IMG/VR virus record: IMGVR_UViG_3300006810_008231
Coordinates: 1-48,111 of that record
Reading direction: 5' to 3' (one strand)
DNA length: 48,111 nt
Source of the DNA: a virus
The translations under genes and the position numbers were made by a program. Of the stretch, positions 13,045 through 43,424 are shown in pieces (positions within the stretch are counted from its first letter, which is position 1; every line of letters starts with the position of its first letter). Under the pieces are notes generated by a model, which saw only the letters and a list, made by a program, of their open reading frames with translations, did no database searches and was not told the origin of the DNA.

Positions 13045-14613
13045 TTAAATCTCATGAATTTTTTCAATAATAAACGAATTATCACCCTTTTTGACTTCCC
13101 CGCAGAATAAAAGGTTGTTACCCTCGTATAGCATATATTCATATTTCTGTCTAGTTTCCGGAAAGACTACAACACTATCAAGCATACAAGTCTCATCTTC
13201 AATTGTCAAGAAACACATGAGTTGCCCCGGATTCTTTCCGTTCTTAGTCTTGACAGTATTGATACGAATAATATTACCAGCCACACATAGATTGCCGCCA
13301 TATTTACCATCAACAATTTCTTTACACGTTGTAGTAGCAGCCGAGGTATCAGCCGCGTCTATTCTTGATAGAGAAACGGGACACCCTAAAAACTTAATTT
13401 CCTGATCAATAATCCAAGATGGATCATCATCAAGGCTAAATGGTGGATTGTCAATCATTTCGATTTCATTTTGAATTGTTTGACTGCGTGCAACCGTGCT
13501 CGTGCCGCCGCCTTGTTTTTTAGTGGGGGCAATATCTGTAAAACAATCTTTTAGACTAACCCATTCTTTAGCGGAATAATTATTGTTAACCCATTCTTGT
13601 TCTTTTTTAGTCAGGATGCGGAAAATCTCATACTCATATAATGCTTTATTTCTAGATACTCCAGTAGACTTTGTACTGAAGAAACCTATAGATGCTAGGG
13701 CTTTAAAAGATGTAGAGTTTATTTTTGGCGATAGATAGATTAGAACATCCATCCACGAAAAATCTCTGGATGGTTTACCTAATTCTTCTTCTACAGACTT
13801 AACAGTTTCTATAACCTTGTCGCCAGATACTCCAGTAAGCGATTTAATATCTTTGACACCAAAGTATATATCATCACCAAATGCTTCAAACTTTTGGCTG
13901 AAACGTGTCAGGCTTGGAACTTTTACTTCAATGTTGAATAGTTTAGCTTCTGATACAAGTTCATAGATTTCTTGGTGGGGATCTTGCTTGTCAGCAGCAT
14001 GATATAGATAAGATAGAAAAAACTCTTTAGTGTGATTAGCTTTATACCAAGCTGTATGGTATGCGTTTACTGCGTATGAGACACTGTGAGATTTATTAAA
14101 TGCATATCGTGAAGATTTTTCAATCCAGCCAAAGATATCCTCAGCAATTTTCTTTTTAACAATTCCAGTATTAACGCAGCCGCTGATAAACTTAGTTTTA
14201 ATTTTAGCCATCAGGTCGGCTTTTTTCTTACCAATAGCTTTTCTTAGTTCATCTGCTTCTTTAAGATCAAACCCAGCCAATTTCTGAGCGATACGCATTG
14301 ACTGCTCTTGATATACTAGAACTCCATATGTTGCCTTTAGTACATCTTCAAGTGAATTGTCAAGATATGTAACCTTATCTCGTCCATGTTTTCTATCAAC
14401 ATAGTGTTGAGTCATGGATTTACCATCTGTAATAGCTTTAAGGGTGCCGGGTCTGATGATAGCTATAAGAGCCGATAACTCTTCAATATTAGACGGAGCT
14501 AGTCTCTTCGACCACGCTTTACCTAGATTACTCTCTAGCTGAAATACGCCCTTAGTATATCCGTTCTTAAACAGATCCCAAGTCTTTTCATCCTGAAAGT
14601 TAATATCAGACAT
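13045..14613 (-). CDS. dnaE: DNA polymerase III alpha, C-terminal half (split gene)
   Basis: A 522-residue piece of a bacterial-type replicative polymerase. It begins at the point that follows the third catalytic Asp region in intact DnaE: GVFQLESNLGKAW, then VVYQEQ-like LVYQEQSMRIAQKL, LRKAIGKKKADLMAKI and SSRYAFNKSHSVSYAVNAYH, all thumb/fingers signatures, followed by a helix-hairpin region and an OB domain at the end. I use the ATG at 14613, which overlaps the exonuclease stop by eight bases; the longer reading begins with TTG. The catalytic Asp residues are in the other half (16034-17650). No intein is seen. Confidence 0.88.
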   Translation of the reverse strand: MSDINFQDEKTWDLFKNGYTKGVFQLESNLGKAWSKRLAPSNIEELSALIAIIRPGTLKAITDGKSMTQHYVDRKHGRDKVTYLDNSLEDVLKATYGVLVYQEQSMRIAQKLAGFDLKEADELRKAIGKKKADLMAKIKTKFISGCVNTGIVKKKIAEDIFGWIEKSSRYAFNKSHSVSYAVNAYHTAWYKANHTKEFFLSYLYHAADKQDPHQEIYELVSEAKLFNIEVKVPSLTRFSQKFEAFGDDIYFGVKDIKSLTGVSGDKVIETVKSVEEELGKPSRDFSWMDVLIYLSPKINSTSFKALASIGFFSTKSTGVSRNKALYEYEIFRILTKKEQEWVNNNYSAKEWVSLKDCFTDIAPTKKQGGGTSTVARSQTIQNEIEMIDNPPFSLDDDPSWIIDQEIKFLGCPVSLSRIDAADTSAATTTCKEIVDGKYGGNLCVAGNIIRINTVKTKNGKNPGQLMCFLTIEDETCMLDSVVVFPETRQKYEYMLYEGNNLLFCGEVKKGDNSFIIEKIHEI

Positions 14614-15283
14614 ACAAATCCCCGTTAGCAAATGCTTTATCAACTTTTAAATTACGGTATACAGCCCTGTGCGTCTTCATAAATTTAATCATTACATTAG
14701 CTGTATCTTTTACGTCCTGTAGAGCATCGTGTGCATTTTCAGATGATAGACCCATACGTTCACGTAGGCTATCCATGCTAATAGATTTTACATTAGGGTC
14801 GCCTTCAGTCCACATGAAAACATTATCCATTACATCAATTTTATAAATCTGATGAAATAGCTTCTGCCGTTCACGCTTATCATCCCACGGTCCAAATTCT
14901 TTACATAGTCTGTCTATAATAATCATATCATATCCAAGTATATTAAACCCAGCCGGTATTGGGGCAAAGAATGAAGTTCCCTTCCAGTTGTACTTATCAA
15001 CAAACTGAGTAAACTTTTTCCATACAGTTTTTAGGTGTGGAGCCTTAGCTATTTGTTCTCTGGTTTTACCAGTAACCTTTAATGCTCCTTCTTCAATTGG
15101 TCCAAGACCTTTTGCGATAGCTTTCTCGTCATCTACTTCGGCACGTATTTCGCTGTTGAATGTACCCTTCAGCTTGAAATTTCTACCATCAAGTGCTAAT
15201 GCAGCCAACTGCGTGGGTTGACATATTCTTGGGTCTCTACCACCTGTTTCAAAGTCAAATACGATCAAATCTCTATTAGCCAT
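14606..15283 (-). CDS. DnaQ-like DEDDh 3'-5' exonuclease
   Basis: A 225-residue proofreading-type exonuclease. The first acidic pair is in IVFDFETGG (residues 8-16), the second region is GFNILGYDMIIIDRLC (exo II, with Asp), and HDALQDVKDTANVM carries the exo III His and Asp. The family removes mismatched 3' ends during replication. It lies between the two polymerase halves and overlaps the downstream half by eight bases, so it is probably the proofreading partner of the split polymerase. The start ATG 15283 follows the HNH gene by ten bases. Confidence 0.9.
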   Translation of the reverse strand: MANRDLIVFDFETGGRDPRICQPTQLAALALDGRNFKLKGTFNSEIRAEVDDEKAIAKGLGPIEEGALKVTGKTREQIAKAPHLKTVWKKFTQFVDKYNWKGTSFFAPIPAGFNILGYDMIIIDRLCKEFGPWDDKRERQKLFHQIYKIDVMDNVFMWTEGDPNVKSISMDSLRERMGLSSENAHDALQDVKDTANVMIKFMKTHRAVYRNLKVDKAFANGDLYV

Positions 15284-16033: not shown

Positions 16034-17650
16034 TCATTTCGCTTGGTTTTCTTCTAGTAACTCCTGTATGTGCATAACTTTATCTAATAACGAGAGTCCG
16101 AGCAAGTCGAACTTAACATGTCCAAGTGCTTCTAAATCTGCCATTTCTAATCCAGCGATTTTTTCTCCACCGCTACGTTGGTTGACCATTGGGCATACTT
16201 TATGTAATGGCTCGGCTGAAATAACAACACCAGCAGCATGTTTTCCCTGAGTCTTAAACGTGCCCTCTATTTCAATTGCCTGCTTAAAAAACTCTGCATA
16301 GTCACCATCAAGATCTCCATTGTCGTTAATGAAACAAAAATCACGGAGGTCGTCAGCGTTATTGATTAATGCCCATCTGATTATAGAACGTTCATCTTCA
16401 TCCATTTCCTGTAGCTGATCGGAAATAGCCGCCTCGTCTGGTATAGACTTAGTAATTTCATTCATTTCACTAAAGCTACACACATCACTGATGCGTAAAA
16501 CTTCTTTAACGGCGCTGCGACCCTGCAATCTTCCAAATGTAAGCATCTGACTTACGTTGTCTTTTCCATAAGTAGATTTAAGATACTCAATGATATCATC
16601 ACGCTTATTAGCTGGAACATCCATATCAATATCTGGAAGGGAATCTGTACGGGCTGCATTATAAAACCTTTCAAATAATAAGTCAAACTCAATTGGGTCA
16701 ATCTGAGTGATTTCAATCAAGTATGAAATAAGACAACCGGCAGCAGACCCTCTACCCGGACCCGCTAACCATCCTTGACTTTTTACATATCGGATAATAT
16801 CTTGCACGATTAGAAAATATCCAAATAACTTAGCTTGATTAATAACATCAAATTCAGTTGTAAATCTATCAAGATACTTCTGCTTGTCGCCTTCTTTATC
16901 TACCTTGCCTGTTTTAGACAGGAATTTCACCCATCCATTACGGCATAGCTGCTTCAGATATTCTTCTTCTGACTGTCCAGTTGGAGTTGGAAACTTTGGC
17001 AGCATTGGCGGATTAAGAATTTCGTAATCTTCGCACAGGTTGTAGATTTTCTCTAAACACAATTGTCCGTATTCATCATCTGGCATCTCGCTATTGGACT
17101 TAACATAGAACGTGTCTTTAATGAAAAACTCTTCATTTTGTTCTAGTTTACCAGATCTTAACAATGTATTTACTTTAGGTAAAGTGGTCTTCATGGCGGA
17201 ACATAGAAGTATTCTATGGAGATGTGCATCGTCTTTCTCAACATAATGTGACGGGGTTGTAAGCGGGTTATGCTTGAATGTAAGCGAATCGTCACATGGG
17301 GACTTATCATGCGTCAGGCATATCAGATTTCCACGTTTACAGATATTTTCAGTAATATGAAAATACTCATTGCCTTCCGGGCTTAACGAGGAAACAATCT
17401 CAATTAAATTGAACCAACCCTGTTTATTCTTTGCGAACAGAGTATAATGATCAAAGGAGCAGCCAATAATTGGCTTGATATTATTATCCTTGCATGTCTT
17501 ATAAAATGATACAGCACCGGATATAGATTTGTAATCTGATATACCGCAGGCTGGATATTCATTCTCAACGCATTTCTTGGACAATTGTTTAGGTTTTGAG
17601 AAACCTTTTAGAAGTGAATAATGTGTATAGTTGCAAAGTGGGTATTTCAT
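16034..17650 (-). CDS. dnaE: DNA polymerase III alpha, N-terminal half (split gene)
   Basis: A 538-residue protein. It starts with a PHP domain (NYTHYSLLKGFSKPKQLSKK, ACGISDYKSISG, IKPIIGCSFD) and continues with the palm: GWLAGPGRGSAAGCLISYL, the catalytic pair in LPDIDMDVPANKRDDIIEYL, FGRLQGRSAVKEVLRI, and the third catalytic Asp in VKFDLLGLSLLDKV near the end. It then stops where an intact DnaE would continue into the fingers; that part is at 13045-14613. It has a promoter and RNA element B upstream. The two halves must associate to make a working polymerase. Confidence 0.88.
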   Translation of the reverse strand: MKYPLCNYTHYSLLKGFSKPKQLSKKCVENEYPACGISDYKSISGAVSFYKTCKDNNIKPIIGCSFDHYTLFAKNKQGWFNLIEIVSSLSPEGNEYFHITENICKRGNLICLTHDKSPCDDSLTFKHNPLTTPSHYVEKDDAHLHRILLCSAMKTTLPKVNTLLRSGKLEQNEEFFIKDTFYVKSNSEMPDDEYGQLCLEKIYNLCEDYEILNPPMLPKFPTPTGQSEEEYLKQLCRNGWVKFLSKTGKVDKEGDKQKYLDRFTTEFDVINQAKLFGYFLIVQDIIRYVKSQGWLAGPGRGSAAGCLISYLIEITQIDPIEFDLLFERFYNAARTDSLPDIDMDVPANKRDDIIEYLKSTYGKDNVSQMLTFGRLQGRSAVKEVLRISDVCSFSEMNEITKSIPDEAAISDQLQEMDEDERSIIRWALINNADDLRDFCFINDNGDLDGDYAEFFKQAIEIEGTFKTQGKHAAGVVISAEPLHKVCPMVNQRSGGEKIAGLEMADLEALGHVKFDLLGLSLLDKVMHIQELLEENQAK

Positions 17651-17779: not shown

Positions 17780-19006
17780 TTACAAAAGTTCCTCAATAAG
17801 TCTGCCGCCGTTGGCGATCTTCATTGGTCTTCCACTCTTACTTGTGTAGATGGCCTTGGTGTCAATACTCAGTGCTTGGAGCGTTGTAGCCATGAGATCT
17901 TGGGCTTCATAAGACATCCCGTCGATCATCTTTCCATCGGCTGTTGTTGCACCAATAGCTTGACCTCCCTTAAATAGACCACCAGAAACAAATGCGCTCC
18001 ATGTAGCAGCCCAATGGTCTCTTCCTGCGTTTTGATTAATACGTGGAGTTCTACCAAATTCGCCCATCATTACGATAGCTACATTATCCCACATATTTAA
18101 TCTTTTCAGGTCAAGAATAAGAGTAGATACTACCTTATCAAGTTCTGGCAGTTTAGTACTTAATGTATCATGGGTCATCTGATGAAGATCCCATCCACCA
18201 AAACCAATTTCTACAAACGGCACGCCTTGCTGAATTAACCTTCTTGCCATTAAAGCGCTGTTACCAAGTCCACTATTACCATACATTGCTCTAACTGCAT
18301 CTGGTTCCATCTGTAGATTCAACGCATTCATTTGTGGAGATGTGTTTAGTCTAATCGTTTTTTCATACAACTTTTTATGATCCATAGGCAAGTCGCCACG
18401 ATTAGAATCAATGAACCCCTTCTCTATCATTGTCAGCATTTCTAGTCTATTCTGATTTAACTGACCTCCGAGGTTATTAATCTGACCATTAGAGTTAACG
18501 ATAAATGGGTTGTAGGATGTTCCTAAAAACCCACCACCAACACTGCCTGTACCTACAGAGAAAAATGCAGGTATTTCTAGTTCTTTTCTGGTTTTTCCCA
18601 ATTCGTATGACACAACCGACCCTACAGATGGATGAATAACTGTTGGATTTGGCTTAAAACCAGTATGCATATAATATGTACCGCGCATATGGTCAGCTTC
18701 ACGAGTAGACATGCTGCGTATTACAGAAAAGTCTTTTCCAAGTTTAGCTAACTCAGGTAGATACTCACTAATCTGGAAATCTCCAGCGGTACTAATTGGA
18801 TTATGCGGACCACCTTCTTTTGTTCCGGGTTTTAAATCCCACATATCAATAGTAGGAGGACCACCGCCCAGCCAGATTAGAATCGCAGCCTTTTGGTCTT
18901 TAGTAAGTTGAGAATGATTTTTAATAATCTGTTCACCAAAGGCTAGCGATGTACCAGCAAGGGCGGTTAGCCCTGTTGAATGTCGTATAAAGTCTCTTCT
19001 ATTCAT
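17780..19006 (-). CDS. DUF1501 protein with Tat signal, first copy
   Basis: A 408-residue exported protein of the DUF1501 family, which has an alkaline-phosphatase/sulfatase-like fold and is abundant in Planctomycetes. A twin-arginine signal (MNRRDFIRHSTGLTALAGTS) leads; LIWLGGGPPTIDMWDLKPG contains the first acidic metal-site region; the C-terminal part has GGWDLHQMTHDTLS and MMGEFGRTPRINQNAGRDHW, the family signature. The family's activity is not known to me with certainty. Export through Tat would place it in the periplasm. It follows a Cys-containing conserved phage gene by ten bases. A second copy lies at 20569-21822. Confidence 0.88.
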   Translation of the reverse strand: MNRRDFIRHSTGLTALAGTSLAFGEQIIKNHSQLTKDQKAAILIWLGGGPPTIDMWDLKPGTKEGGPHNPISTAGDFQISEYLPELAKLGKDFSVIRSMSTREADHMRGTYYMHTGFKPNPTVIHPSVGSVVSYELGKTRKELEIPAFFSVGTGSVGGGFLGTSYNPFIVNSNGQINNLGGQLNQNRLEMLTMIEKGFIDSNRGDLPMDHKKLYEKTIRLNTSPQMNALNLQMEPDAVRAMYGNSGLGNSALMARRLIQQGVPFVEIGFGGWDLHQMTHDTLSTKLPELDKVVSTLILDLKRLNMWDNVAIVMMGEFGRTPRINQNAGRDHWAATWSAFVSGGLFKGGQAIGATTADGKMIDGMSYEAQDLMATTLQALSIDTKAIYTSKSGRPMKIANGGRLIEELL

Positions 19007-19694: not shown

Positions 19695-20351
19695 CTAAAA
19701 ATTTTCTAGTTCTGGAAATAATCTATATCTAATATCTTCCCATAACGCTCCAGTGATTACCATAGAAGCCTCATTGTCTGATGGGTAATGAACCCCCTGT
19801 AGCATTCTAGCCATACCGACATCAGAAACAACCCCAAAGAATTCACCAGAATATTCTGGGTATGCAGACGCTAATACATACGCGCCTAGAGCGCCATAAC
19901 ATGTATGGCCAGATGGATAAGATGGCGTTTTAGCACTTTTCGTATGGATTACTTTTAGCTCAATTCCATACTTTTCTGCTAATTGCTCTGGTCTGGGCCT
20001 ATTATATTTCCACTTCAAGTTCATTACTACGGGGTAGACTAATTTATACGCTTTGTCGAAAATATCTTGTGGCATCTTTAACCCATGCCTTTTAAGGATC
20101 TTATAATAAAGATCAAGCGGTTCTTCGTCTACCAGTTTAATAAGGTCAATCTGTTCAGCGGTTCTATTCTCAGTTAACTCGTGTACATAGTGAAGTTCCT
20201 TTCTTGTGGTTTCACTATTATTAGCAGGGGGTAGCGGTAAAACCCCCTTCCAATTTATTGTGATGTCATTGCTAACATCCCAAGTCTTAGTGGTTTCACC
20301 ATACTTAATTTTATTTAAACTATCTAATATATAGGTTTCTGCTTGTTTCAT
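19695..20351 (-). CDS. PAP2-family (acid) phosphatase
   Basis: A 218-residue protein with all three PAP2 motifs: KWKYNRPRP (motif 1), SYPSGHTCYGALGAYVLA (motif 2, with the catalytic-support His) and GMARMLQGVHYPSDNEA (motif 3, with Arg, His and Asp). The family hydrolyses phosphate monoesters or lipid phosphates. No membrane helices of the lipid-phosphatase type and no clear signal peptide are seen, so it resembles the soluble acid phosphatase/haloperoxidase branch. I use ATG 20351; the longer form starts with TTG. It overlaps the small membrane-protein gene upstream by 32 bases. Confidence 0.85.
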   Translation of the reverse strand: MKQAETYILDSLNKIKYGETTKTWDVSNDITINWKGVLPLPPANNSETTRKELHYVHELTENRTAEQIDLIKLVDEEPLDLYYKILKRHGLKMPQDIFDKAYKLVYPVVMNLKWKYNRPRPEQLAEKYGIELKVIHTKSAKTPSYPSGHTCYGALGAYVLASAYPEYSGEFFGVVSDVGMARMLQGVHYPSDNEASMVITGALWEDIRYRLFPELENF

Positions 20352-20559
20352 TTTTGGTTTCCGCAAAGTACTTTGGTTTTAAGATTTCTTTTGGGGCTAT
20401 CGCTGGTGGCGGGGGAACAGTTATATTGCCAGACTCTGGCTTAACATAAATAGGAATTGGTTGGAGAATCACCGGAACGTGCCTGTGATTTTCCCATAAA
20501 GTATAAACCGATAAAGATAAAGACACACAGACGAAAAACCCCAAAAGAAAATCTTTCAT
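20320..20559 (-). CDS. Small membrane-anchored proline-rich protein
   Basis: A 79-residue protein with one N-terminal membrane segment (FLLGFFVCVSLSLSVYTLW, residues 4-22), then a Pro-rich stretch (VPPPPAIAPKEILKPKYF). It could span the periplasm from the inner membrane, or be a short lipoprotein-like or spanin-like piece, but nothing specific shows this. It lies between the second DUF1501 gene and the PAP2 phosphatase, both of which suggest exported or membrane functions, and overlaps the phosphatase gene. Function unknown. Confidence 0.6.
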   Translation of the reverse strand: MKDFLLGFFVCVSLSLSVYTLWENHRHVPVILQPIPIYVKPESGNITVPPPPAIAPKEILKPKYFAETKNETSRNLYIR

Positions 20560-20568
20560 TTTAGTCTC

Positions 20569-21822
20569 CTACGCTATATCTGTAAGGATATTTTTCTCTT
20601 GATTGCCGGTTATTGGCATCGGTCTGCCTTCTATTGAGAACCAAGTATTACCTCTTTGTAGACCCATATGATTGAGAATAGTCCATCTGAGGTCTTCAGG
20701 GGTACATAGACCATCTTCTGGAAACTCTGCGGCAGCATTGGTTTTACCAATAATTCTACCCATATCATATGACGCAGAAGAAATCATAAGTGGCACTGAA
20801 TTACTCCAATGGTCACGACCAGCATTACCGTTAATCTTTGGAGTTCTGCCAAACTCACTTGTTACAACAAGCATAGTTTTTTCTGATAAGCCTCTTTTAG
20901 CAAGGGTATCAATTAACAGACCAAGATATTTATCAAGTGTAACCTGACGGGAATTAAGACCTGCGACAATGTTGCTGTGCATATCCCACCCGCCATAATT
21001 GATATTTACAAATTTAGCCCCATTTTGCACGGCTCTTATTGCTGATAACATGTCCTTACCAAGCTGATCATCTTTGAATAGATTATAATCCGCATCTTCC
21101 TCTATTCTAAATGTTTCGCCAGCTTTGCCGGTTATTGCTTGAACCGCTTGTTCTTGAAATTCATTCCAAGATCTTCCAAGTTCACCAAGTTGTGATTTAG
21201 ATTCTACTAATCGTAGTAGATTAGCTCTGTTATCAAATTGAGATCTTTCGCCCTTAATCTGGAGGTCACTAACTCCGCGAGCATTTGCTTCATATCCAGT
21301 ATATTTTTGACCCATCCATGCCGCAGCATCACCATCAATTTTATTCATTTTGATGTAAGTTGGAAGGCCATGAGGTTGTGATACCGGCCCATAGTAACCA
21401 GCCACAACTGCACCGTAACTTGGATACTTTTGTACGGTTCCGCCTTGATTACGCTCACCACCAACAACCCAATGCGTGGCCGTCTGATGGTTAGAATCTT
21501 TATGATAGAAGCCATGTACAACGCTGATTTTGTCTGCTCTTGTACTTAGCTCCTTAAATAGTCCACCAATATGTAAACCATCTACATTAGTTTGTAGGTA
21601 GCCCGTCGCAGATCTGCGTTCTACTGGAGCGTTTGGTATTGGATTGAATGTCTCAATATGAGTCGATCCTCCACCAAGAAATACAAAGATGACATTGTTA
21701 TCATTTTTAGATAGTTTAGGATCATATTCTCCAGCATATGATGCTGAGATATTACCATCTACAAGATAAGCTCCACCAAGAAAACTAACACCGTATTTAA
21801 TAAAATCTCTACGTGTATTCAT
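20569..21822 (-). CDS. DUF1501 protein with Tat signal, second copy
   Basis: A 417-residue DUF1501 protein, clearly related to the 17780-19006 gene but divergent. The Tat motif is MNTRRDFIKYGVSFLGGAYL. The first metal-site region is FVFLGGGSTHIETFNPIPN, and the C-terminal signature is SEFGRTPKINGNAGRDHW. It keeps the GGWDMHSN segment. Such proteins are common on host chromosomes of Planctomycetes, where they are often next to DUF1549/DUF1553 genes; those partners are absent here. It may act on a host envelope component; this is inference. Confidence 0.88.
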   Translation of the reverse strand: MNTRRDFIKYGVSFLGGAYLVDGNISASYAGEYDPKLSKNDNNVIFVFLGGGSTHIETFNPIPNAPVERRSATGYLQTNVDGLHIGGLFKELSTRADKISVVHGFYHKDSNHQTATHWVVGGERNQGGTVQKYPSYGAVVAGYYGPVSQPHGLPTYIKMNKIDGDAAAWMGQKYTGYEANARGVSDLQIKGERSQFDNRANLLRLVESKSQLGELGRSWNEFQEQAVQAITGKAGETFRIEEDADYNLFKDDQLGKDMLSAIRAVQNGAKFVNINYGGWDMHSNIVAGLNSRQVTLDKYLGLLIDTLAKRGLSEKTMLVVTSEFGRTPKINGNAGRDHWSNSVPLMISSASYDMGRIIGKTNAAAEFPEDGLCTPEDLRWTILNHMGLQRGNTWFSIEGRPMPITGNQEKNILTDIA

Positions 21823-35234: not shown

Positions 35235-35483
35235 TCACCTCCAGTTAAGCATGTTATTAATACGCATTTGCTGAGTGTAATCTACACCGTTAATAATACA
35301 CTTACGGTTGTTATACTCATGAATCCATTTTTTCTCTTCTTCTGAGAGGTGTCCACCCTTAGACATCCATCGCAACTTTTTAAAAGCAAATTTAATTACT
35401 GCATTAGAAACAGGGTCTTCCATGACCCCAAGAATTGTACCAAGCGTTCCTCCAATACCAATGGATGCTAGGATAGATACCAT
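35235..35483 (-). CDS. Small membrane-associated protein
   Basis: An 82-residue protein whose N-terminus (VSILASIGIGGTLGTILGVM, residues 2-21) is a hydrophobic, glycine-rich segment compatible with membrane insertion, followed by a charged helical part (GGHLSEEEKKWIHEYNNRK). Size and layout are compatible with a holin-like protein, but there is only one hydrophobic segment. It lies between the protease-thioredoxin gene and the Pro/Glu-rich gene, overlapping the latter's region closely. Confidence 0.5.
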   Translation of the reverse strand: MVSILASIGIGGTLGTILGVMEDPVSNAVIKFAFKKLRWMSKGGHLSEEEKKWIHEYNNRKCIINGVDYTQQMRINNMLNWR

Positions 35484-35486
35484 ATT

Positions 35487-37385
35487 CTACTCCTTGCTAG
35501 GAGACTCTGGTGTAATTTTTTGTCCTAGTTTTTTCATCATCCGGGCCTTTAAGAACCCACGAACTCCACCGGTAGCTTGACCTGCACCAATAAGTGCTAG
35601 CAGACCGGCAATAAGCCTTTGAAAGAACGATCTATCTTCACCATCTTCATTTTGAGTTGATTGAAGTTCTTCTATGGCTGGTCCAACATTACTCATAACG
35701 CCAGATATAATTTCGTCTTTATCTGGAACTACTATACCTTTTATATTACCTTTAAGATCACCAATTTCATCTCTAACTGCACTAAGAATAATTTCTCGTG
35801 TAGTTTCAGCTTCAGTTGGTGGGGGTGTGACTTTATCCCTAACTTCTAGTGAATCGGTAATAGCTGTATAAGCCTGTGCGTGTATTCTTTCAAATACGAT
35901 TTCCAAAGGAGTTCCTTGTGGAACTTTTTCTAAAATTGATCTCTCTACTTTGCCAGCAATTAGTGATTTAAGACCTAAGCTCTGCTTCTTTACAAGAACC
36001 ATAACGTAAAATGGATCTGGATCAATACCTGCCGTTGTTACAAAAGATTCATACCTTATAGGTTGCGTTCTTTCGTCTACTATTTCTATGTTAGCTTTAC
36101 CATCAAAAAATTCTGCGTTAGCTCTAGCTATTGGGCCTTGAATTGCTTTTAGCAAAACCCTAGCGGCAGCTTCTCGTGTAAAGCCTTCTAGCTGCTTTTT
36201 AGCGGCAACTATGATTGAAACATTTTCCCAATCAATATCTTCTACTATTGGTTCTGTTGGTGTTGGAGCTACCTCTTGACCCGGTGGCGGCGGAACATCT
36301 AAATCGTCTGGATCGGATATTCCCGGAGGTGCTGGTGCTGCTGGTAACTCATCAAATTCTGGATTAGAGTTCCAGTTATCTGGAGGTGTAGGTGTTCTTG
36401 GTACTGATGGAGGACCATCATCTGGAACAATCTCTCCACCGGGAGCATTACCAAATAAGAGAGTGCCAAGACCCTTAACGCCCCTAATGATCCAGCCTAA
36501 TAGTGATAATCTTCTACCAGAGGTATATCCAGTTGCATACTTTGATGTTCCTCGAACCCATACGGTTGGTAGTTTATCTACATCTTTACCAGTCGCTTGT
36601 CTAAATTCATTTACTAATTGCTTATTATCCCATTCTCCATTGTCATGTTTTACTTCAATTGGATTTAAGCCTCTAGAAGTAAAATCTTTATATGATACTT
36701 CTCTCTTTAACACTTGGCACGCTCCACACCAGTCTGCTGTGAAGATAACAACATCTGCTTTTTTTGCTATCTTTGGTTCTTCATTTTTACGTGGGCTTGC
36801 TGTGTCACCAACCTTTGCTTTTGACGCAGATAATGCCTGCACAATTAATCTATGTGCAGAAAAGTATGAATTATTTGAATTAAGTGGAATGTCTACAGCC
36901 TGTGCTATTCCAACAATTTCATCATTTTCATTAATTAGTGGGCCTCCAGAATTACCCGGAGATATTCTCATTGATGCATAATTTACAGTTTCACCATTTC
37001 CACCTGTAATTTTACCATACGTTACAGCGTAATTTCCACCCGGATAACCAATAGAATGAACTAGGCTATCAACCGGTGGTGGACTATCTGATACATTAAA
37101 TGATTTATACCTTTTGCCATTTTCGCTAGGAACATAGTATACAATTGGACCATCTAATGCATCTGTAACGTATACAAGTTCTGCTGTAACATCTTCCATT
37201 TTTATGGATTTTCCAAGTCCATTCAGACAATGTTTAGCAGTAAACAAATAATTACCGTCCACCATAAAACCCGTGCAACCACTGAGTTTAATTACCCTGC
37301 TGTCGGTATCTACAACATCTACAGGTTGTGCAAAACCTATCGAGCTACAAGCAAGTAAAACAAGTGTAACAAGTAATCTTTTCAT
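35487..37385 (-). CDS. Secreted trypsin-like protease fused to thioredoxin domain
   Basis: A 632-residue protein, read from ATG 37385 with an upstream GGAGA. A signal peptide (MKRLLVTLVLLACSSIGFAQ) is followed by a trypsin-like domain: catalytic His in LFTAKHCLNG (about residue 52), an Asp in VTDALDGP (about 75-78) and Ser in SPGNSGGPLI (about 146). A thioredoxin-like domain follows, with VIFTADWCGACQVLKRE (CxxC at about 220-223). Then a Pro-rich stretch, an alpha/beta region and a C-terminal hydrophobic segment (RLIAGLLALIGAGQ) that may anchor it. It would act outside the cytoplasmic membrane. I know no phage protein with this domain order. Confidence 0.8.
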   Translation of the reverse strand: MKRLLVTLVLLACSSIGFAQPVDVVDTDSRVIKLSGCTGFMVDGNYLFTAKHCLNGLGKSIKMEDVTAELVYVTDALDGPIVYYVPSENGKRYKSFNVSDSPPPVDSLVHSIGYPGGNYAVTYGKITGGNGETVNYASMRISPGNSGGPLINENDEIVGIAQAVDIPLNSNNSYFSAHRLIVQALSASKAKVGDTASPRKNEEPKIAKKADVVIFTADWCGACQVLKREVSYKDFTSRGLNPIEVKHDNGEWDNKQLVNEFRQATGKDVDKLPTVWVRGTSKYATGYTSGRRLSLLGWIIRGVKGLGTLLFGNAPGGEIVPDDGPPSVPRTPTPPDNWNSNPEFDELPAAPAPPGISDPDDLDVPPPPGQEVAPTPTEPIVEDIDWENVSIIVAAKKQLEGFTREAAARVLLKAIQGPIARANAEFFDGKANIEIVDERTQPIRYESFVTTAGIDPDPFYVMVLVKKQSLGLKSLIAGKVERSILEKVPQGTPLEIVFERIHAQAYTAITDSLEVRDKVTPPPTEAETTREIILSAVRDEIGDLKGNIKGIVVPDKDEIISGVMSNVGPAIEELQSTQNEDGEDRSFFQRLIAGLLALIGAGQATGGVRGFLKARMMKKLGQKITPESPSKE

Positions 37386-37398
37386 ATCAATCTCCTGT

Positions 37399-38010
37399 TT
37401 AAGTCCCATCTATTGTGAATAAGTATTGTATTATGGGGGATCTCGCTAAATCCGCAGGAGAAACCCTTTCGTCTGCTAAATATGGCACAGGGTCCATGAA
37501 TTCTTTTCTTAGTGCCACTGTTACGGCTGTACTGCAAACCTTCGCTTTAGCCACATCGTCATCATTAATATTTTGCTGAAAAATTCTTGCTCCCGGTATG
37601 AACCTCATAAACATTTTAAATATATTTTTCCAGCCGTATGGTTGACCAGTCCACTTAACAATATCCTGAGTCATTTTATTTGCTATTTCTTTTGTGTAAA
37701 CAAGATCTATATTCTGTATAGACTTGTCATCTAGCATTTTTTGGTATGATATTGAGTTAACTGGTCTAAAAACGTCTATATTGGTTGGGCTATCTTTTAC
37801 TTGACTTTCTAGCGATACCGATCTACCACCCTTAAACTCTCTAAATTCTACACACATCCAAGTATCATTAAACTTACTTGCAAGTGCTACATGAGAATGA
37901 ATACCACCTGTGTACCGTTGTATTAAAAAACTTATTAAACCTTCACCTCTAAATAATAAAATATCGCCTTCTTGAAGGATGCTTTTAGCCTCTTCGTACT
38001 TTATTAACAT
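37399..38010 (-). CDS. YiiX/C92-like permuted NlpC/P60 amidase
   Basis: A 203-residue protein. GDILLFRGEGLISFLIQRYT and GGIHSHVALAS carry the His of the permuted papain-like fold; KVCSTAVTVALRKEF near the C-terminus carries the candidate nucleophile Cys. This resembles the YiiX (peptidase C92) group, whose members cut amide bonds in lipids or peptidoglycan. I use ATG 38010; the alternative TTG overlaps the upstream gene further. It lies between the membrane PAS gene and the protease-thioredoxin gene, so an envelope target is likely. Confidence 0.7.
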   Translation of the reverse strand: MLIKYEEAKSILQEGDILLFRGEGLISFLIQRYTGGIHSHVALASKFNDTWMCVEFREFKGGRSVSLESQVKDSPTNIDVFRPVNSISYQKMLDDKSIQNIDLVYTKEIANKMTQDIVKWTGQPYGWKNIFKMFMRFIPGARIFQQNINDDDVAKAKVCSTAVTVALRKEFMDPVPYLADERVSPADLARSPIIQYLFTIDGT

Positions 38011-38020
38011 GAGAACCCCT

Positions 38021-38608
38021 TTATGGTTGGACAATATTAATTAAATATCCTCCGTGTTGGTCCTCCCCTACCTTGTATGGATAACCAGATAGGATAATAG
38101 CCTTTCCTTCTAAGGTTTTCGTTTCTATGTAAAATTTCCTAGCCATTTTAAGGCATGATTCAAATTCATGTATGACATGATCTCTATCGTCTTCATGAAG
38201 GAAAGACAACCAGTCAAAACCTTCCATATCGGACTGAGATTTGCCAGTGACTTTATAAAATGCTTCATTAGTCCAAATTAATCTGCCATCTTTGTCTGTT
38301 TCAAACAGTCCGGCATCTAGATAATGTAATGAAGCCCTTGTTCTTTGATCTATTACCCGCTGTCTCTTTTCTATAGTTTCACAGGTAGTCCTCAATGAAT
38401 TAACTGTATCTTTTATTGATTTTCCACCGTTTGTTGTAACTTCTGACTTGATTTGTTCAACTGATAGTTTTAACTCTTCATTAGTTTCAAAAATCTTATT
38501 GACGGGGATAATTATTTTCTTCCATGCCGTAATAATAATTGAAATAGAAGCTACCAAAATTGTTATTTTGTCTAAATACTCTATTATTCCGTTTATTAAA
38601 GAAGCCAT
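38021..38608 (-). CDS. Membrane-anchored PAS-domain protein
   Basis: A 195-residue protein: one N-terminal membrane helix (ITILVASISIIITAWKKIII, residues 15-34), a coiled-coil-like segment (NEELKLSVEQIKSEV to RQRVIDQR), and a PAS domain (LDAGLFETDKDGRLIWTNEA, FYKVTGKSQSDMEGFDWLS, FLHEDDRDHVIHEF). PAS domains sense small molecules, redox or light. No kinase, cyclase or other output domain follows. It opens the envelope operon after the terminator at 38621-38653. It may sense host state for lysis or envelope timing; this is inference. Confidence 0.75.
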   Translation of the reverse strand: MASLINGIIEYLDKITILVASISIIITAWKKIIIPVNKIFETNEELKLSVEQIKSEVTTNGGKSIKDTVNSLRTTCETIEKRQRVIDQRTRASLHYLDAGLFETDKDGRLIWTNEAFYKVTGKSQSDMEGFDWLSFLHEDDRDHVIHEFESCLKMARKFYIETKTLEGKAIILSGYPYKVGEDQHGGYLINIVQP

Positions 38609-38620
38609 AGCAGCCTTTCA

Positions 38621-38653
38621 TAAAAATGGCCAGACCCCAAGTGAGATCTGGCC
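38621..38653 (-). terminator. Intrinsic terminator after the low-complexity protein gene
   Basis: Minus strand: stem GGCCAGA (38653-38647) with TCTGGCC (38634-38628), loop about 12 bases, followed by ATTTTTA. It closes the single-gene unit 38670-39320 and separates it from the PAS operon. It is a clean GC-rich hairpin with a T run. Confidence 0.8.
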
Positions 38654-38669
38654 TAAGAATCAGACTGCA

Positions 38670-39320
38670 TTATGATTCATAAACATTCTTCGCTTTGTAC
38701 TCGTCGGTTGTTGGATTAGGAGCACCAACTCGATAAGTAAGTTCTCCGGGAACGCTTCTTGTTGGAGCAGCAGCGTTATCAGATGCGGCTGTTGATCCAT
38801 CGTCTGCCTGTACATAATCTTGTGCGTTTCCAGCCCCAGAACCCTTTGTGAATGGAGGGGTAATCTGTGTGCTTGGGGCAGCAAAAATGTTGAATGTAGC
38901 TCCAGATCCTAGACGACGAGTAGAATTGATCGCATTGATGCTACTCCTTGTGGAGAATGCACCGTTGTAATCAGATCCGCCACCGGCTAGAACTGTATTA
39001 GCAACACCACCAATAGTTGTAGAAACGTTTCCACCCTTCATGACCCACTGAGTAGCATTAGCTTCAAACGCTAAAGTGCCTCCAGAAACAGCCTTAGCAA
39101 TACCAACTCGATCAGTTGTTGCTGCACCGGTTCCATCATTAGCAACGACTGTAGAACCAAATGATTCACCTCTATCGTCAGCCAACTGATCTACCCTGAT
39201 GACACTTGTGATTGGACCACCAGCGGCTGTATTTCCAGCATTAACAATTGTACCATTGTTATTGTTTGTGCTAGATGATGTTACCGCTGAAGAACCATCC
39301 GTAACCTGAACTGTAGCCAT
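38670..39320 (-). CDS. Low-complexity Ser/Thr/Ala/Gly protein, possibly structural
   Basis: A 216-residue, Cys-free protein rich in Ala, Gly, Ser, Thr and Asn. It lacks a signal peptide or membrane segment and begins MATVQVTDGSSAVTSSSTNN. Beta-type segments (TSVIRVDQLADDRGESFGS, NATQWVMKGGNVSTTIGGV) suggest a repetitive beta protein such as a decoration or fibre component. ATG 39320 has a strong GGAGGAG upstream. It is flanked by a TATAAT box and an intrinsic terminator, so it is its own unit and may be highly expressed. No family is recognised. Confidence 0.55.
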   Translation of the reverse strand: MATVQVTDGSSAVTSSSTNNNNGTIVNAGNTAAGGPITSVIRVDQLADDRGESFGSTVVANDGTGAATTDRVGIAKAVSGGTLAFEANATQWVMKGGNVSTTIGGVANTVLAGGGSDYNGAFSTRSSINAINSTRRLGSGATFNIFAAPSTQITPPFTKGSGAGNAQDYVQADDGSTAASDNAAAPTRSVPGELTYRVGAPNPTTDEYKAKNVYES

Positions 39321-39391
39321 TTTAGACTCCTCCAAAAATAATAGAAAGTTTTTATCAATTCCAGTTCCTTTTTAGCTCCAGTTCCTAGTTT

Positions 39392-39397
39392 ATTATA
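39392..39397 (-). promoter_or_regulatory. Promoter-like -10 box before the low-complexity protein gene
   Basis: TATAAT on the minus strand (39397-39392), followed by AAACT. No convincing -35 box occurs at 16-18 bases; the best nearby is AAGATA. It lies just past the stop of the sigma factor gene and gives a leader of about 65 bases that contains GGAACTGGA twice (a direct repeat). It is plausible as a promoter, but the missing -35 lowers confidence. Confidence 0.5.
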
Positions 39398-39401
39398 CAC
39401 A

Positions 39402-40684: not shown

Positions 40685-41768
40685 CTAATACTTTCATTAT
40701 CTTAATAGCAGAATTATCCCAGCTAAATTCTGTAGCTGTATCAAGTCCCGCTTTGTTGTATGTATTTTCGTGATTTTGCACACGCACATGCACGCTTCTC
40801 ATATGGTTAGATATTTGTTCTATTTGATCCTCCCCAATACGTGCCCATTCTCCCTTGCCATGAAACCATTTTCCGTCATAAGCTATTTCTGTGTCATCTA
40901 TCGTTACTAGCATACTATTTTCTTCAGTACAAAATTCAGTATGTGCTGAGAAGTCAGTAATAATAACCTGTTTACCACAGGCCATCATCTCCAGTGCCTC
41001 TAGATTCCACCCCTCAGCCCTCGCTGGGAAAACGCCGCAGTCTACTTTTCTCATAATATTATACACTTCTTCCTGTGAATTTACACGAGGAATTAGTTTA
41101 ACTCTTGGGTCATTATATTTATTATACCAGTAATTATTCTCATCAGGAGAATTGAATGGGTTTTCACACATCATCCATAGTTGCACGTCTTCATTATCTG
41201 GAAACGCTTTTTTGAAAGCATCAATAAGTACATCGTGGCCCTTGCGGACTTCCCATTTTCCACAGTTAAAAAATACTGTACTGGATGGTTTTGGCTCTGA
41301 TAGGGCTTGAATAACACTGCCGTCAAACACCTTCATATCAACGCCAAGAGGAATTACATGTGTAATATCCTCCATGTTATATCCCCAATAATTCTTTTCT
41401 AGATTATTTATTACTATTTGCTTAGCCCATTCTGAACATACGAAAATCATATCTACACTTCTCAAGTGGTGCTTTTCTAGCTCGTTAAATGAGTCTAATT
41501 CAAATATTGGAAATCCTACACGTTTACCGCCTCCAACGAATTGAGACATATCATGCTGATGCCAAATGCGAATACAGGGTGCTTTTGGGTTAAACATATT
41601 TCTATTACCCATTAAACCTTTTACGTAGTTTGCCTGTACGTCACTTGTTACGGCTGGATCTCCAATAGGCCATAAAGACACTGGCATATATTTATCTAAT
41701 GCTTTACAGATATTATAACCCGCTATGCCATAGCCTAGTTGATTTATTGGTGCTATAATGTTAATCAT
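40677..41768 (-). CDS. GT4-type glycosyltransferase, separate from the main cluster
   Basis: A 363-residue GT-B enzyme. The N-terminus (IAPINQLGYGIAGYNICKAL) has the glycine turn, VFFNCGKWEVRKGHDVLIDA opens the donor domain and ARAEGWNLEALEMMACG holds the GT4 E-x7-E motif. It is far from the main glycan cluster (1-12.6 kb) and stands next to sigma-region genes. It may glycosylate a virion protein, DNA or a host target; the sequence does not say. Its start overlaps the upstream gene by four bases. Confidence 0.82.
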   Translation of the reverse strand: MINIIAPINQLGYGIAGYNICKALDKYMPVSLWPIGDPAVTSDVQANYVKGLMGNRNMFNPKAPCIRIWHQHDMSQFVGGGKRVGFPIFELDSFNELEKHHLRSVDMIFVCSEWAKQIVINNLEKNYWGYNMEDITHVIPLGVDMKVFDGSVIQALSEPKPSSTVFFNCGKWEVRKGHDVLIDAFKKAFPDNEDVQLWMMCENPFNSPDENNYWYNKYNDPRVKLIPRVNSQEEVYNIMRKVDCGVFPARAEGWNLEALEMMACGKQVIITDFSAHTEFCTEENSMLVTIDDTEIAYDGKWFHGKGEWARIGEDQIEQISNHMRSVHVRVQNHENTYNKAGLDTATEFSWDNSAIKIMKVLDV

Positions 41769-42614: not shown

Positions 42615-42695
42615 CTATTCATCTTCAGCTATTATGCTGCAATGTATTGCAAGTAGCCAAAAAAAAATAATCACTAAGATTTCTAATATTTTCAT
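42615..42695 (-). CDS. Very short putative membrane peptide (26 aa)
   Basis: A 26-codon reading frame (ATG 42695, stop TAG 42617-42615). It starts in a TAATG overlap with the stop of the CAP gene, which suggests coupling. The product MKILEILVIIFFWLLAIHCS then IIAEDE is nearly all hydrophobic and would span a membrane once. No Shine-Dalgarno is visible, so translation depends on coupling. A peptide this short could also be chance. Confidence 0.35.
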   Translation of the reverse strand: MKILEILVIIFFWLLAIHCSIIAEDE

Positions 42696-43054
42696 TATCT
42701 AAATCTCGCACACCAGTAATATCTGCCACTACGTGATTTATACACGGCACAGCCTATTTTGGTATAACGAGAATTTAGTATGTTTCTCCTATGTCCGTCA
42801 CTATTCATCCACATCTGCACGACAGATTGTGGACTTACGTTTGCAACAGCTATGTTTTCTGCACCATGTCTAATGTTGGCGTGTTGTAGCGTTTCGTTTT
42901 CTGCCATCCACATTGAGTGCTCAATCGCTTCATTCATTAACTGATCATCTATTTCAAGTACCGATAGTCCATATTGTAATCTAACAATATTGTGATATTC
43001 TACCGTTTGATTAAACCATAAATGATAAGTTATAAAAAAACATAAACAGTACAT
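42695..43054 (-). CDS. CAP-domain (SCP/PR1-like) protein
   Basis: A 119-residue protein. A hydrophobic N-terminus (MYCLCFFITYHLW) may be a signal anchor, followed by a CAP domain: the helix HSMWMAENETLQHANIRHGA with the family His and Glu, then ENIAVANVSPQSVVQMWMNS and GHRRNILNSRYTKIGCAVY. The family includes secreted YkwD-type proteins of unclear activity. I prefer ATG 43054, downstream of the terminator hairpin; a longer frame would start inside the SSB gene. It has no clear ribosome site. Confidence 0.75.
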   Translation of the reverse strand: MYCLCFFITYHLWFNQTVEYHNIVRLQYGLSVLEIDDQLMNEAIEHSMWMAENETLQHANIRHGAENIAVANVSPQSVVQMWMNSDGHRRNILNSRYTKIGCAVYKSRSGRYYWCARFR

Positions 43055-43055
43055 A

Positions 43056-43088
43056 TAAAATGAAAGCGGGGCGACATGACGCCGCCCC
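43056..43088 (-). terminator. Terminator-like hairpin after the second SSB gene
   Basis: Minus strand: GGGGCG with CGCCCC around GCGTCATGT, followed by GCTTTCATTTT. The stem is GC-rich but the T run is broken, so termination may be partial, letting some transcripts reach the CAP gene whose ATG is at 43054. Confidence 0.5.
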
Positions 43089-43103
43089 ACCCTTTTCTGG
43101 CTA

Positions 43104-43424
43104 TTAGTCTTTTTGAGTAACTGGAGGACCAAGAGCGATTTCATCTGCCATTACACAGATTGAACTACGCTGATTGCCTTCTGCATCCTCATAATTATCC
43201 ACCTTTAGCTTACCCTGAATTTCTACTAGCCTGCCTTTAACGAGGAAGGTTTGTAAAGTTTCCGCCATCTTGCCAAAGCAGAGGACGTTTAGGAAAAGCG
43301 TTTCATCGTCTCGTCGTCCATTAGATGCGATTCGGAACTTACTCATTGGAGTACCCTTATGGGTTGTTCCAGCTTCAGCGTTCTTAGTGAGACGACCACT
43401 CCCAATCCAACAGTTCAAATTCAT
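43104..43424 (-). CDS. ssb: Single-stranded DNA-binding protein (OB fold), second copy
   Basis: A 106-residue SSB, closer to the classical bacterial type than the 12589-12900 copy. MNLNCWIGSGRLTKNAEAGT opens the OB fold, FRIASNGRRDDETLFLNVLC gives the aromatic/acidic strand, FGKMAETLQTFLVKGRLVEI the helix and strand, KLKVDNYEDAEGNQRSSI the family loop. The C-terminal acidic tail is missing. ATG 43424 with GGAG upstream; an upstream longer frame is not needed. Two SSBs may serve separate stages or substrates. Confidence 0.88.
   Translation of the reverse strand: MNLNCWIGSGRLTKNAEAGTTHKGTPMSKFRIASNGRRDDETLFLNVLCFGKMAETLQTFLVKGRLVEIQGKLKVDNYEDAEGNQRSSICVMADEIALGPPVTQKD

Follow-up and report, generated by a model that had tools for sequence, protein, structure and literature searches.

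The window that we analysed, a 48,111-nucleotide stretch of IMG/VR virus record IMGVR_UViG_3300006810_008231, encodes a protein in which a trypsin-like protease is joined to a thioredoxin-like domain. This protein is apparently exported and membrane-anchored, and is made by a little-known group of large bacterial viruses. The gene and its surroundings contain the following features, given in the direction of transcription together with the evidence used to place them.

39392..39400, minus strand: promoter-like GTGTATAAT before the upstream 221-aa gene, a putative role (variants at the matching place in relatives)
38670..39335, minus strand: upstream conserved 221-aa protein (synteny)
38628..38653, minus strand: terminator-like hairpin between the 221-aa gene and the cassette (sequence)
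38021..38608, minus strand: cassette gene 1, with an N-terminal membrane helix, coiled coil and PAS domain (PAS_3, E 4.6e-8)
37399..38010, minus strand: cassette gene 2, a permuted papain-like enzyme of the YaeF/YiiX type with H40, E55, Y125 and C159 (PHROG 1128, E 6.5e-11; sub-threshold Peptidase_C92)
35487..37385, minus strand: protease-thioredoxin membrane protein, 632 aa (intact ORF; Trypsin_2, E 3.3e-13; 12 further contigs)
37329..37385, minus strand: its signal peptide, residues 1-19, signal-peptidase-I-like, MKRLLVTLVLLACSSIGFA then Q (sequence and alignment)
36891..37280, minus strand: its S1 trypsin-like protease domain, residues 36-165, with H52, D78 and S146 (Pfam, invariant columns, Foldseek)
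36453..36767, minus strand: its thioredoxin-like domain, residues 207-311, with C220-x-x-C223, cis-Pro P273 and a long hydrophobic last helix, 293-311 (sub-threshold Pfam, PDB profile matches, predicted secondary structure)
36246..36428, minus strand: its Pro-rich linker, residues 320-380, unconstrained in sequence (alignment, codon-position test)
35841..36236, minus strand: its alpha/beta domain, residues 384-515, two beta-alpha-beta-alpha units (AF2, Foldseek, VIA-align, weak internal repeat, codon test)
35562..35618, minus strand: its candidate C-terminal membrane helix, residues 590-608, then a Lys/Arg-rich tail (hydropathy, alignment conservation)
35235..35483, minus strand: cassette gene 4, an 82-aa protein with one N-terminal membrane helix (alignment, hydropathy)

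The ATG of the protease-thioredoxin gene at 37385 is preceded by a Shine-Dalgarno-like GGAG, and an alternative, longer start is possible at 37409. We found the protein encoded in 12 further IMG/VR contigs, one of which has only the C-terminal part, with 45-97% identity over full-length alignments. A codon-position test showed that nucleotide changes cluster at third positions in every domain but the linker, indicating selection on the protein. This clustering, the Trypsin_2 score, the frame kept in the further contigs and the residues invariant in nine aligned sequences (H52, D78, S146, C37, C53, C220, C223 and P273) argue that the ORF is not a product of chance. The initial annotation had placed a signal peptide, the protease motifs TAKHC and GNSGGP, a WCGAC motif, a Pro-rich linker and a C-terminal hydrophobic segment in one reading frame, and all of these were recovered in the 632-aa ORF: the motifs contain H52, S146, and C220 and C223, the linker occupies about residues 320-380, and the final segment, at residues 590-608, is borderline (Kyte-Doolittle 1.31). 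An alpha/beta domain at about residues 384-515 and the four-gene context had been absent from that reading. The full-length AF2 model was of low confidence (pLDDT 54), and active-site geometry was therefore left out of the argument.

Domain searches separated the two halves of the proposed fusion. Pfam Trypsin_2 matched residues 37-160 at 51 bits, well above its curated cutoff of 27.6, confirming the protease half, but the thioredoxin families matched residues 207-290 at 20.1-22.7 bits, under their cutoff of 27 (the highest being Thioredoxin_2 on the isolated domain). A putative His-Asp-Ser triad of H52, D78 and S146 was assigned from the alignment. The C37/C53 pair sits where trypsin has its C42-C58 disulfide; when relatives were checked singly, only four cysteines were common to them, those of the pairs C37/C53 and C220/C223. 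Foldseek comparison of the protease domain returned Deg/HtrA and Spl proteases (E 1e-5). No PDZ domain was matched in the 632-aa protein by Pfam at E 1, and the protein scored far under the cutoffs of the NCBIfam HtrA models. PADLOC matches (RT-Protease, LmuA) were rejected as confined to the S1 domain.

The assignment of residues 207-311 as thioredoxin-like is supported by motif and predicted fold. The CxxC and cis-Pro that characterise the superfamily are present in all nine aligned sequences, and a profile of this region built from six relatives hit PDB entries for TXNDC5, PDI and thioredoxin, with E values from 3e-5 to 5e-3. The strongly hydrophobic helix at residues 293-311 would fall at the expected place of the last helix of the thioredoxin fold; we rejected it as a middle membrane helix, since a crossing that leaves the protease external would seem to need the basic residues on the opposite side. 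The dipeptide inside the CxxC varies among relatives (GA, RA, PS, SS and EP), and the Trp that precedes the motif has been lost in two lineages.

The alpha/beta domain of about 130 residues that follows the linker is, in most comparisons, the most conserved part of the protein at second codon positions. It had no Pfam match in the window protein. Its AF2 model is of moderate confidence (pLDDT about 74), and in that model its closest folds are of the tautomerase/MIF type (Foldseek E 1.8e-3; VIA-align Z 7.3, rated middling by the tool), suggesting a weak resemblance to this superfamily; the two-unit structure of the model agrees with the weak internal repeat in the sequence. Most tautomerase/MIF members have a catalytic N-terminal proline, although non-Pro1 members exist, whereas the domain here is internal, begins DIDWENVSII and lacks such a proline, which would make a role in assembly or binding likelier than tautomerase activity. 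The C-terminal helix falls under the hydrophobicity threshold in relative L026, and the Lys/Arg-rich tail behind it suggests a type I membrane topology. At the other end of the protein, every full-length relative has a signal-peptidase-I-like end to its signal peptide. We also considered a lipoprotein (LLAC, residues 10-13), which is unlikely because C13 is absent from most relatives.

All of the relatives are uncultured genome fragments, and cultured relatives were not found. The initial annotation had called the combination unusual for a phage and had suggested looking for the same fusion in other phages; very unusual it proved to be, with no match among 50,697 phage records, nor among 72,556 plasmid records. 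When 84,980 bacterial and archaeal genomes were scanned with two short peptide patterns, one match appeared, to the protease domain only. In 400 genomes of the phylum containing that match, the protease-thioredoxin profile matched 59 places, none of which extends past position 188 of the 282-position profile: all end in or just after the protease, short of the CxxC. As far as we could see, the fusion is limited to this viral group in the collections searched. The domain types are known, and judging from these sequence searches it is their combination and setting that are new to the collections.

In relatives with sufficiently long contigs, four genes form a compact block in which this gene comes third. 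The order is membrane/coiled-coil protein, permuted papain-like enzyme, protease-thioredoxin protein and membrane protein of about 82 aa, with start codons that mostly abut or overlap the preceding stop. A PAS or PAS-like domain occurs in the cassette of the window and of L003, L025-L027 and L044, either on its own or following a membrane helix and coiled coil; L025-L027 have a coiled-coil gene plus a separate PAS gene, and several relatives have the protease and no PAS domain. The product of the second gene scored 19.6 bits against Pfam Peptidase_C92, under the cutoff of 27, and its His-Glu-Tyr-Cys set, with the Cys near the C-terminus, is invariant in six sequences; among cultured phages it is matched only by Bacillus phages, at 23-24%. 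Enzymes of the permuted papain-like class are often lipid-directed. One of them, a type VI secretion (T6SS) effector, is a phospholipase (PMC12994826), and the catalytic His49, Glu64, Tyr127 and Cys154 of a solved Bacillus cereus enzyme (PMC3142127) match the set found here.

Upstream of the cassette, G+C-rich hairpin-like sequence lies at the matching place in relatives, and the conserved 221-aa protein is perhaps virion-related. The promoter-like GTGTATAAT recurs slightly above chance, at 39392-39400 and 41058-41066 in the window and at 909, 5015 and 6312 in L026. The copies at 39392 and 6312, each before the conserved upstream gene, are a possible phage promoter. The T4-like late promoter TATAAATA was rejected, occurring at chance level in the window and nowhere upstream of the cassette. 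Rfam and tRNA searches returned no match.

A search with the papain-like gene yielded 30 loci. In eleven of these (L028-L038, a sister clade) the next gene encodes a different S1 protease of 662-687 aa, which has a signal peptide, an S1 domain, a four-cysteine zinc-ribbon-like region, a Pro-rich spacer, a coiled coil, a membrane helix and a basic tail, and no thioredoxin domain. Common origin of this whole protein with that of the window was not upheld by profile comparison, in which a non-significant match (E 0.026) covered the signal peptide and protease only. The part common to the slot in both clades is apparently an exported, seemingly membrane-tethered protease, the thioredoxin domain belonging to one build only. 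The most distant loci (L040-L048, a third clade) have no protease directly downstream of the papain-like gene, and gene 1 of one member of this clade gives weak matches to Rz-like spanins (E 0.008), seen in this clade only. L028 (11545-12567) and L029 (11508-12443) encode a second secreted S1 protease, two genes downstream of the gene that adjoins the papain-like one.

Several other genes of these genomes deserve mention. The window has two DUF1501 genes (17780-19006 and 20569-21822; E 1e-86 and 8e-60), which flank a PAP2 phosphatase gene (19695-20366). DUF1501 is almost absent from known phages; the two largest relatives, of 142 kb and 161 kb, have one copy apiece; the family is expanded in planctomycetes, and these genes may hint at a planctomycete host. 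A DNA polymerase is split between the ORFs at 13045-14643 and 16034-17650, which match consecutive stretches of a single phage polymerase family (phrog_405; positions 623-1055 and 243-618); between them lie two ORFs, one of them an exonuclease (RNase_T). A CAP/SCP-domain protein with a hydrophobic N-terminus is encoded at 42695-43144 (E 2e-20). The ribonucleotide reductase of L004 (10638-13916) is 1092 aa long and that of the near-identical L006 is 734 aa long, the difference being an intein-like insertion.

The protein had initially been proposed to cut and refold disulfide-bonded envelope proteins of the host. The signal peptide, the invariant C37/C53 pair and the membrane and papain-like neighbours speak for an envelope role, with export itself a prediction. 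Refolding fared less well: the varying CxxC dipeptide and the loss of the Trp fit reduction of substrate disulfides before cutting at least as well, and refolding cannot be the function common to both clades, since the exported S1 protease of the sister clade has no thioredoxin domain. We tentatively propose that the protein is exported and tethered to the inner membrane, that its protease cuts envelope proteins, and that the cassette acts in an attack on the envelope, most probably at or near lysis; this reading we consider quite possible, if short of probable. In such a model, the Sec pathway would export the protein and its signal peptide would be cleaved off, leaving the protease and thioredoxin-like domains beyond the cytoplasmic membrane. 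A flexible Pro-rich spacer would come next, then the alpha/beta domain, which probably serves assembly or binding, and the C-terminal helix would anchor the protein in the host inner membrane with its basic tail inside. The protease (H52-D78-S146) would cut envelope proteins, and the thioredoxin-like domain would most likely act on disulfides, reducing or shuffling those of the substrate or those within the protease. The membrane/coiled-coil protein, the papain-like hydrolase and the small membrane protein would work with it as an envelope-attack cassette.

This reading is supported by the conserved four-gene order and by the sister-clade slot, which is filled by a protein of different build and like layout. 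Against it stand the borderline C-terminal helix and the restriction of the weak spanin matches to the third clade. As for lysis, a search of five records of 48-161 kb (including those of 119, 142 and 161 kb) gave no match to Amidase_2, SLT, Phage_lysozyme, M15_4, M23 or Amidase_3. The absence of these six endolysin families makes the cassette a candidate lysis unit; it is suggestive, the records being fragments and other lysin families existing. However, the cassette adjoins glycosyltransferase and nucleotide-metabolism genes with no recognised lysis genes beside it, which argues against lysis, and the third-clade loci indicate that the protease is not required for the papain-like core. A more specific version, which we regard as doubtful, is a spanin-less lysis cassette in which the tethered protease, with its own disulfide reductase, would destroy proteins that hold the outer membrane to the cell, the papain-like enzyme being an endolysin or membrane lipase. 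How phages that lack spanins disrupt the outer membrane was left unanswered by a survey of spanins, which mentioned a type I inner-membrane protein as one possible agent (PMC6139136).

Other explanations share some of this evidence. Known exclusion proteins are usually small and non-enzymatic, which counts against the unlikely alternative that a tethered protease acts early in superinfection exclusion or receptor destruction, cutting the receptor or proteins of incoming phages at the membrane. The predicted periplasmic, membrane-tethered topology would suit that role, as would the other envelope-related genes of these phages (CAP, PAP2, glycosyltransferases), and T4 Spackle is a precedent, a known periplasmic exclusion protein (PMC7677548); the conserved papain-like hydrolase and membrane/coiled-coil neighbours nevertheless look more like envelope breakdown. 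The Deg/HtrA-like protease domain and the PAS domain encoded by a neighbouring gene in the window and in some of the relatives could instead point to host take-over or control of envelope stress, in which a DegS-like site protease would cut a membrane regulator or clear damaged proteins while the PAS neighbour senses and signals. With no PDZ domain detected by Pfam and the PAS domain missing from several relatives that keep the protease, this is quite improbable.

Since the window encodes several probable exported or membrane proteins, cutting and disulfide exchange might aid the maturation of the phage's own exports (DUF1501, PAP2 or CAP proteins, for example). We think such quality control very improbable, as relatives G003-G007 (fragments) keep the cassette with no DUF1501 match and the sister clade has other parts in place of the thioredoxin domain. 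A virion or prohead processing protease is scarcely credible: large phages often encode maturation proteases (PMC7824862) and the conserved upstream gene is perhaps virion-related, but capsid maturation in the cytoplasm cannot be reconciled with a signal peptide and a membrane helix, and S1 is not a prohead-protease family in Pfam. A conserved cassette with differently built, exported and apparently tethered proteases in two clades is a concrete candidate for spanin-less passage of the outer membrane. The fusion of protease and thioredoxin-like domain is also an added architecture, which our searches of these collections located in this uncultured viral group and nowhere else.

Among known systems, the HtrA/Deg proteases (DegP, DegS, HhoA) are the best structural matches and have in common with this protein the S1 fold, the triad and the character of an exported or membrane-tethered envelope protease. 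The protein differs from them in lacking a PDZ domain, in its C-terminal rather than N-terminal anchor, and in its added thioredoxin-like and alpha/beta domains and invariant trypsin-like Cys pair. The glutamyl endopeptidase/Spl-type enzymes, which sequence comparison with the PDB matched at E about 6e-4, are likewise secreted S1 proteases and are similar in size, but are free single-domain enzymes. With the thioredoxin/PDI family the protein has in common the CxxC, the cis-Pro, the predicted beta-alpha order and PDB profile matches, and it departs from that family in its sub-threshold score, variable CxxC dipeptide, long hydrophobic last helix and fusion to a protease. Two-component and unimolecular phage spanins offer a possible functional analogy, as membrane-tethered, periplasm-spanning proteins in a compact envelope cassette (PMC6139136). 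The 632-aa protein is probably neither an outer-membrane lipoprotein nor a type II i-spanin, and it has no PHROG spanin match; in contrast to spanins it is predicted to be enzymatic and of type I topology. The sister-clade protease (L028-L038) occupies the same slot after the papain-like gene and resembles the window protein in having a signal peptide, an S1 domain, a Pro-rich spacer, a membrane helix at the C-terminal end and a basic tail, but carries a zinc-ribbon-like Cys cluster and a coiled coil in place of the thioredoxin-like and alpha/beta domains, and a GQSGSG active site.
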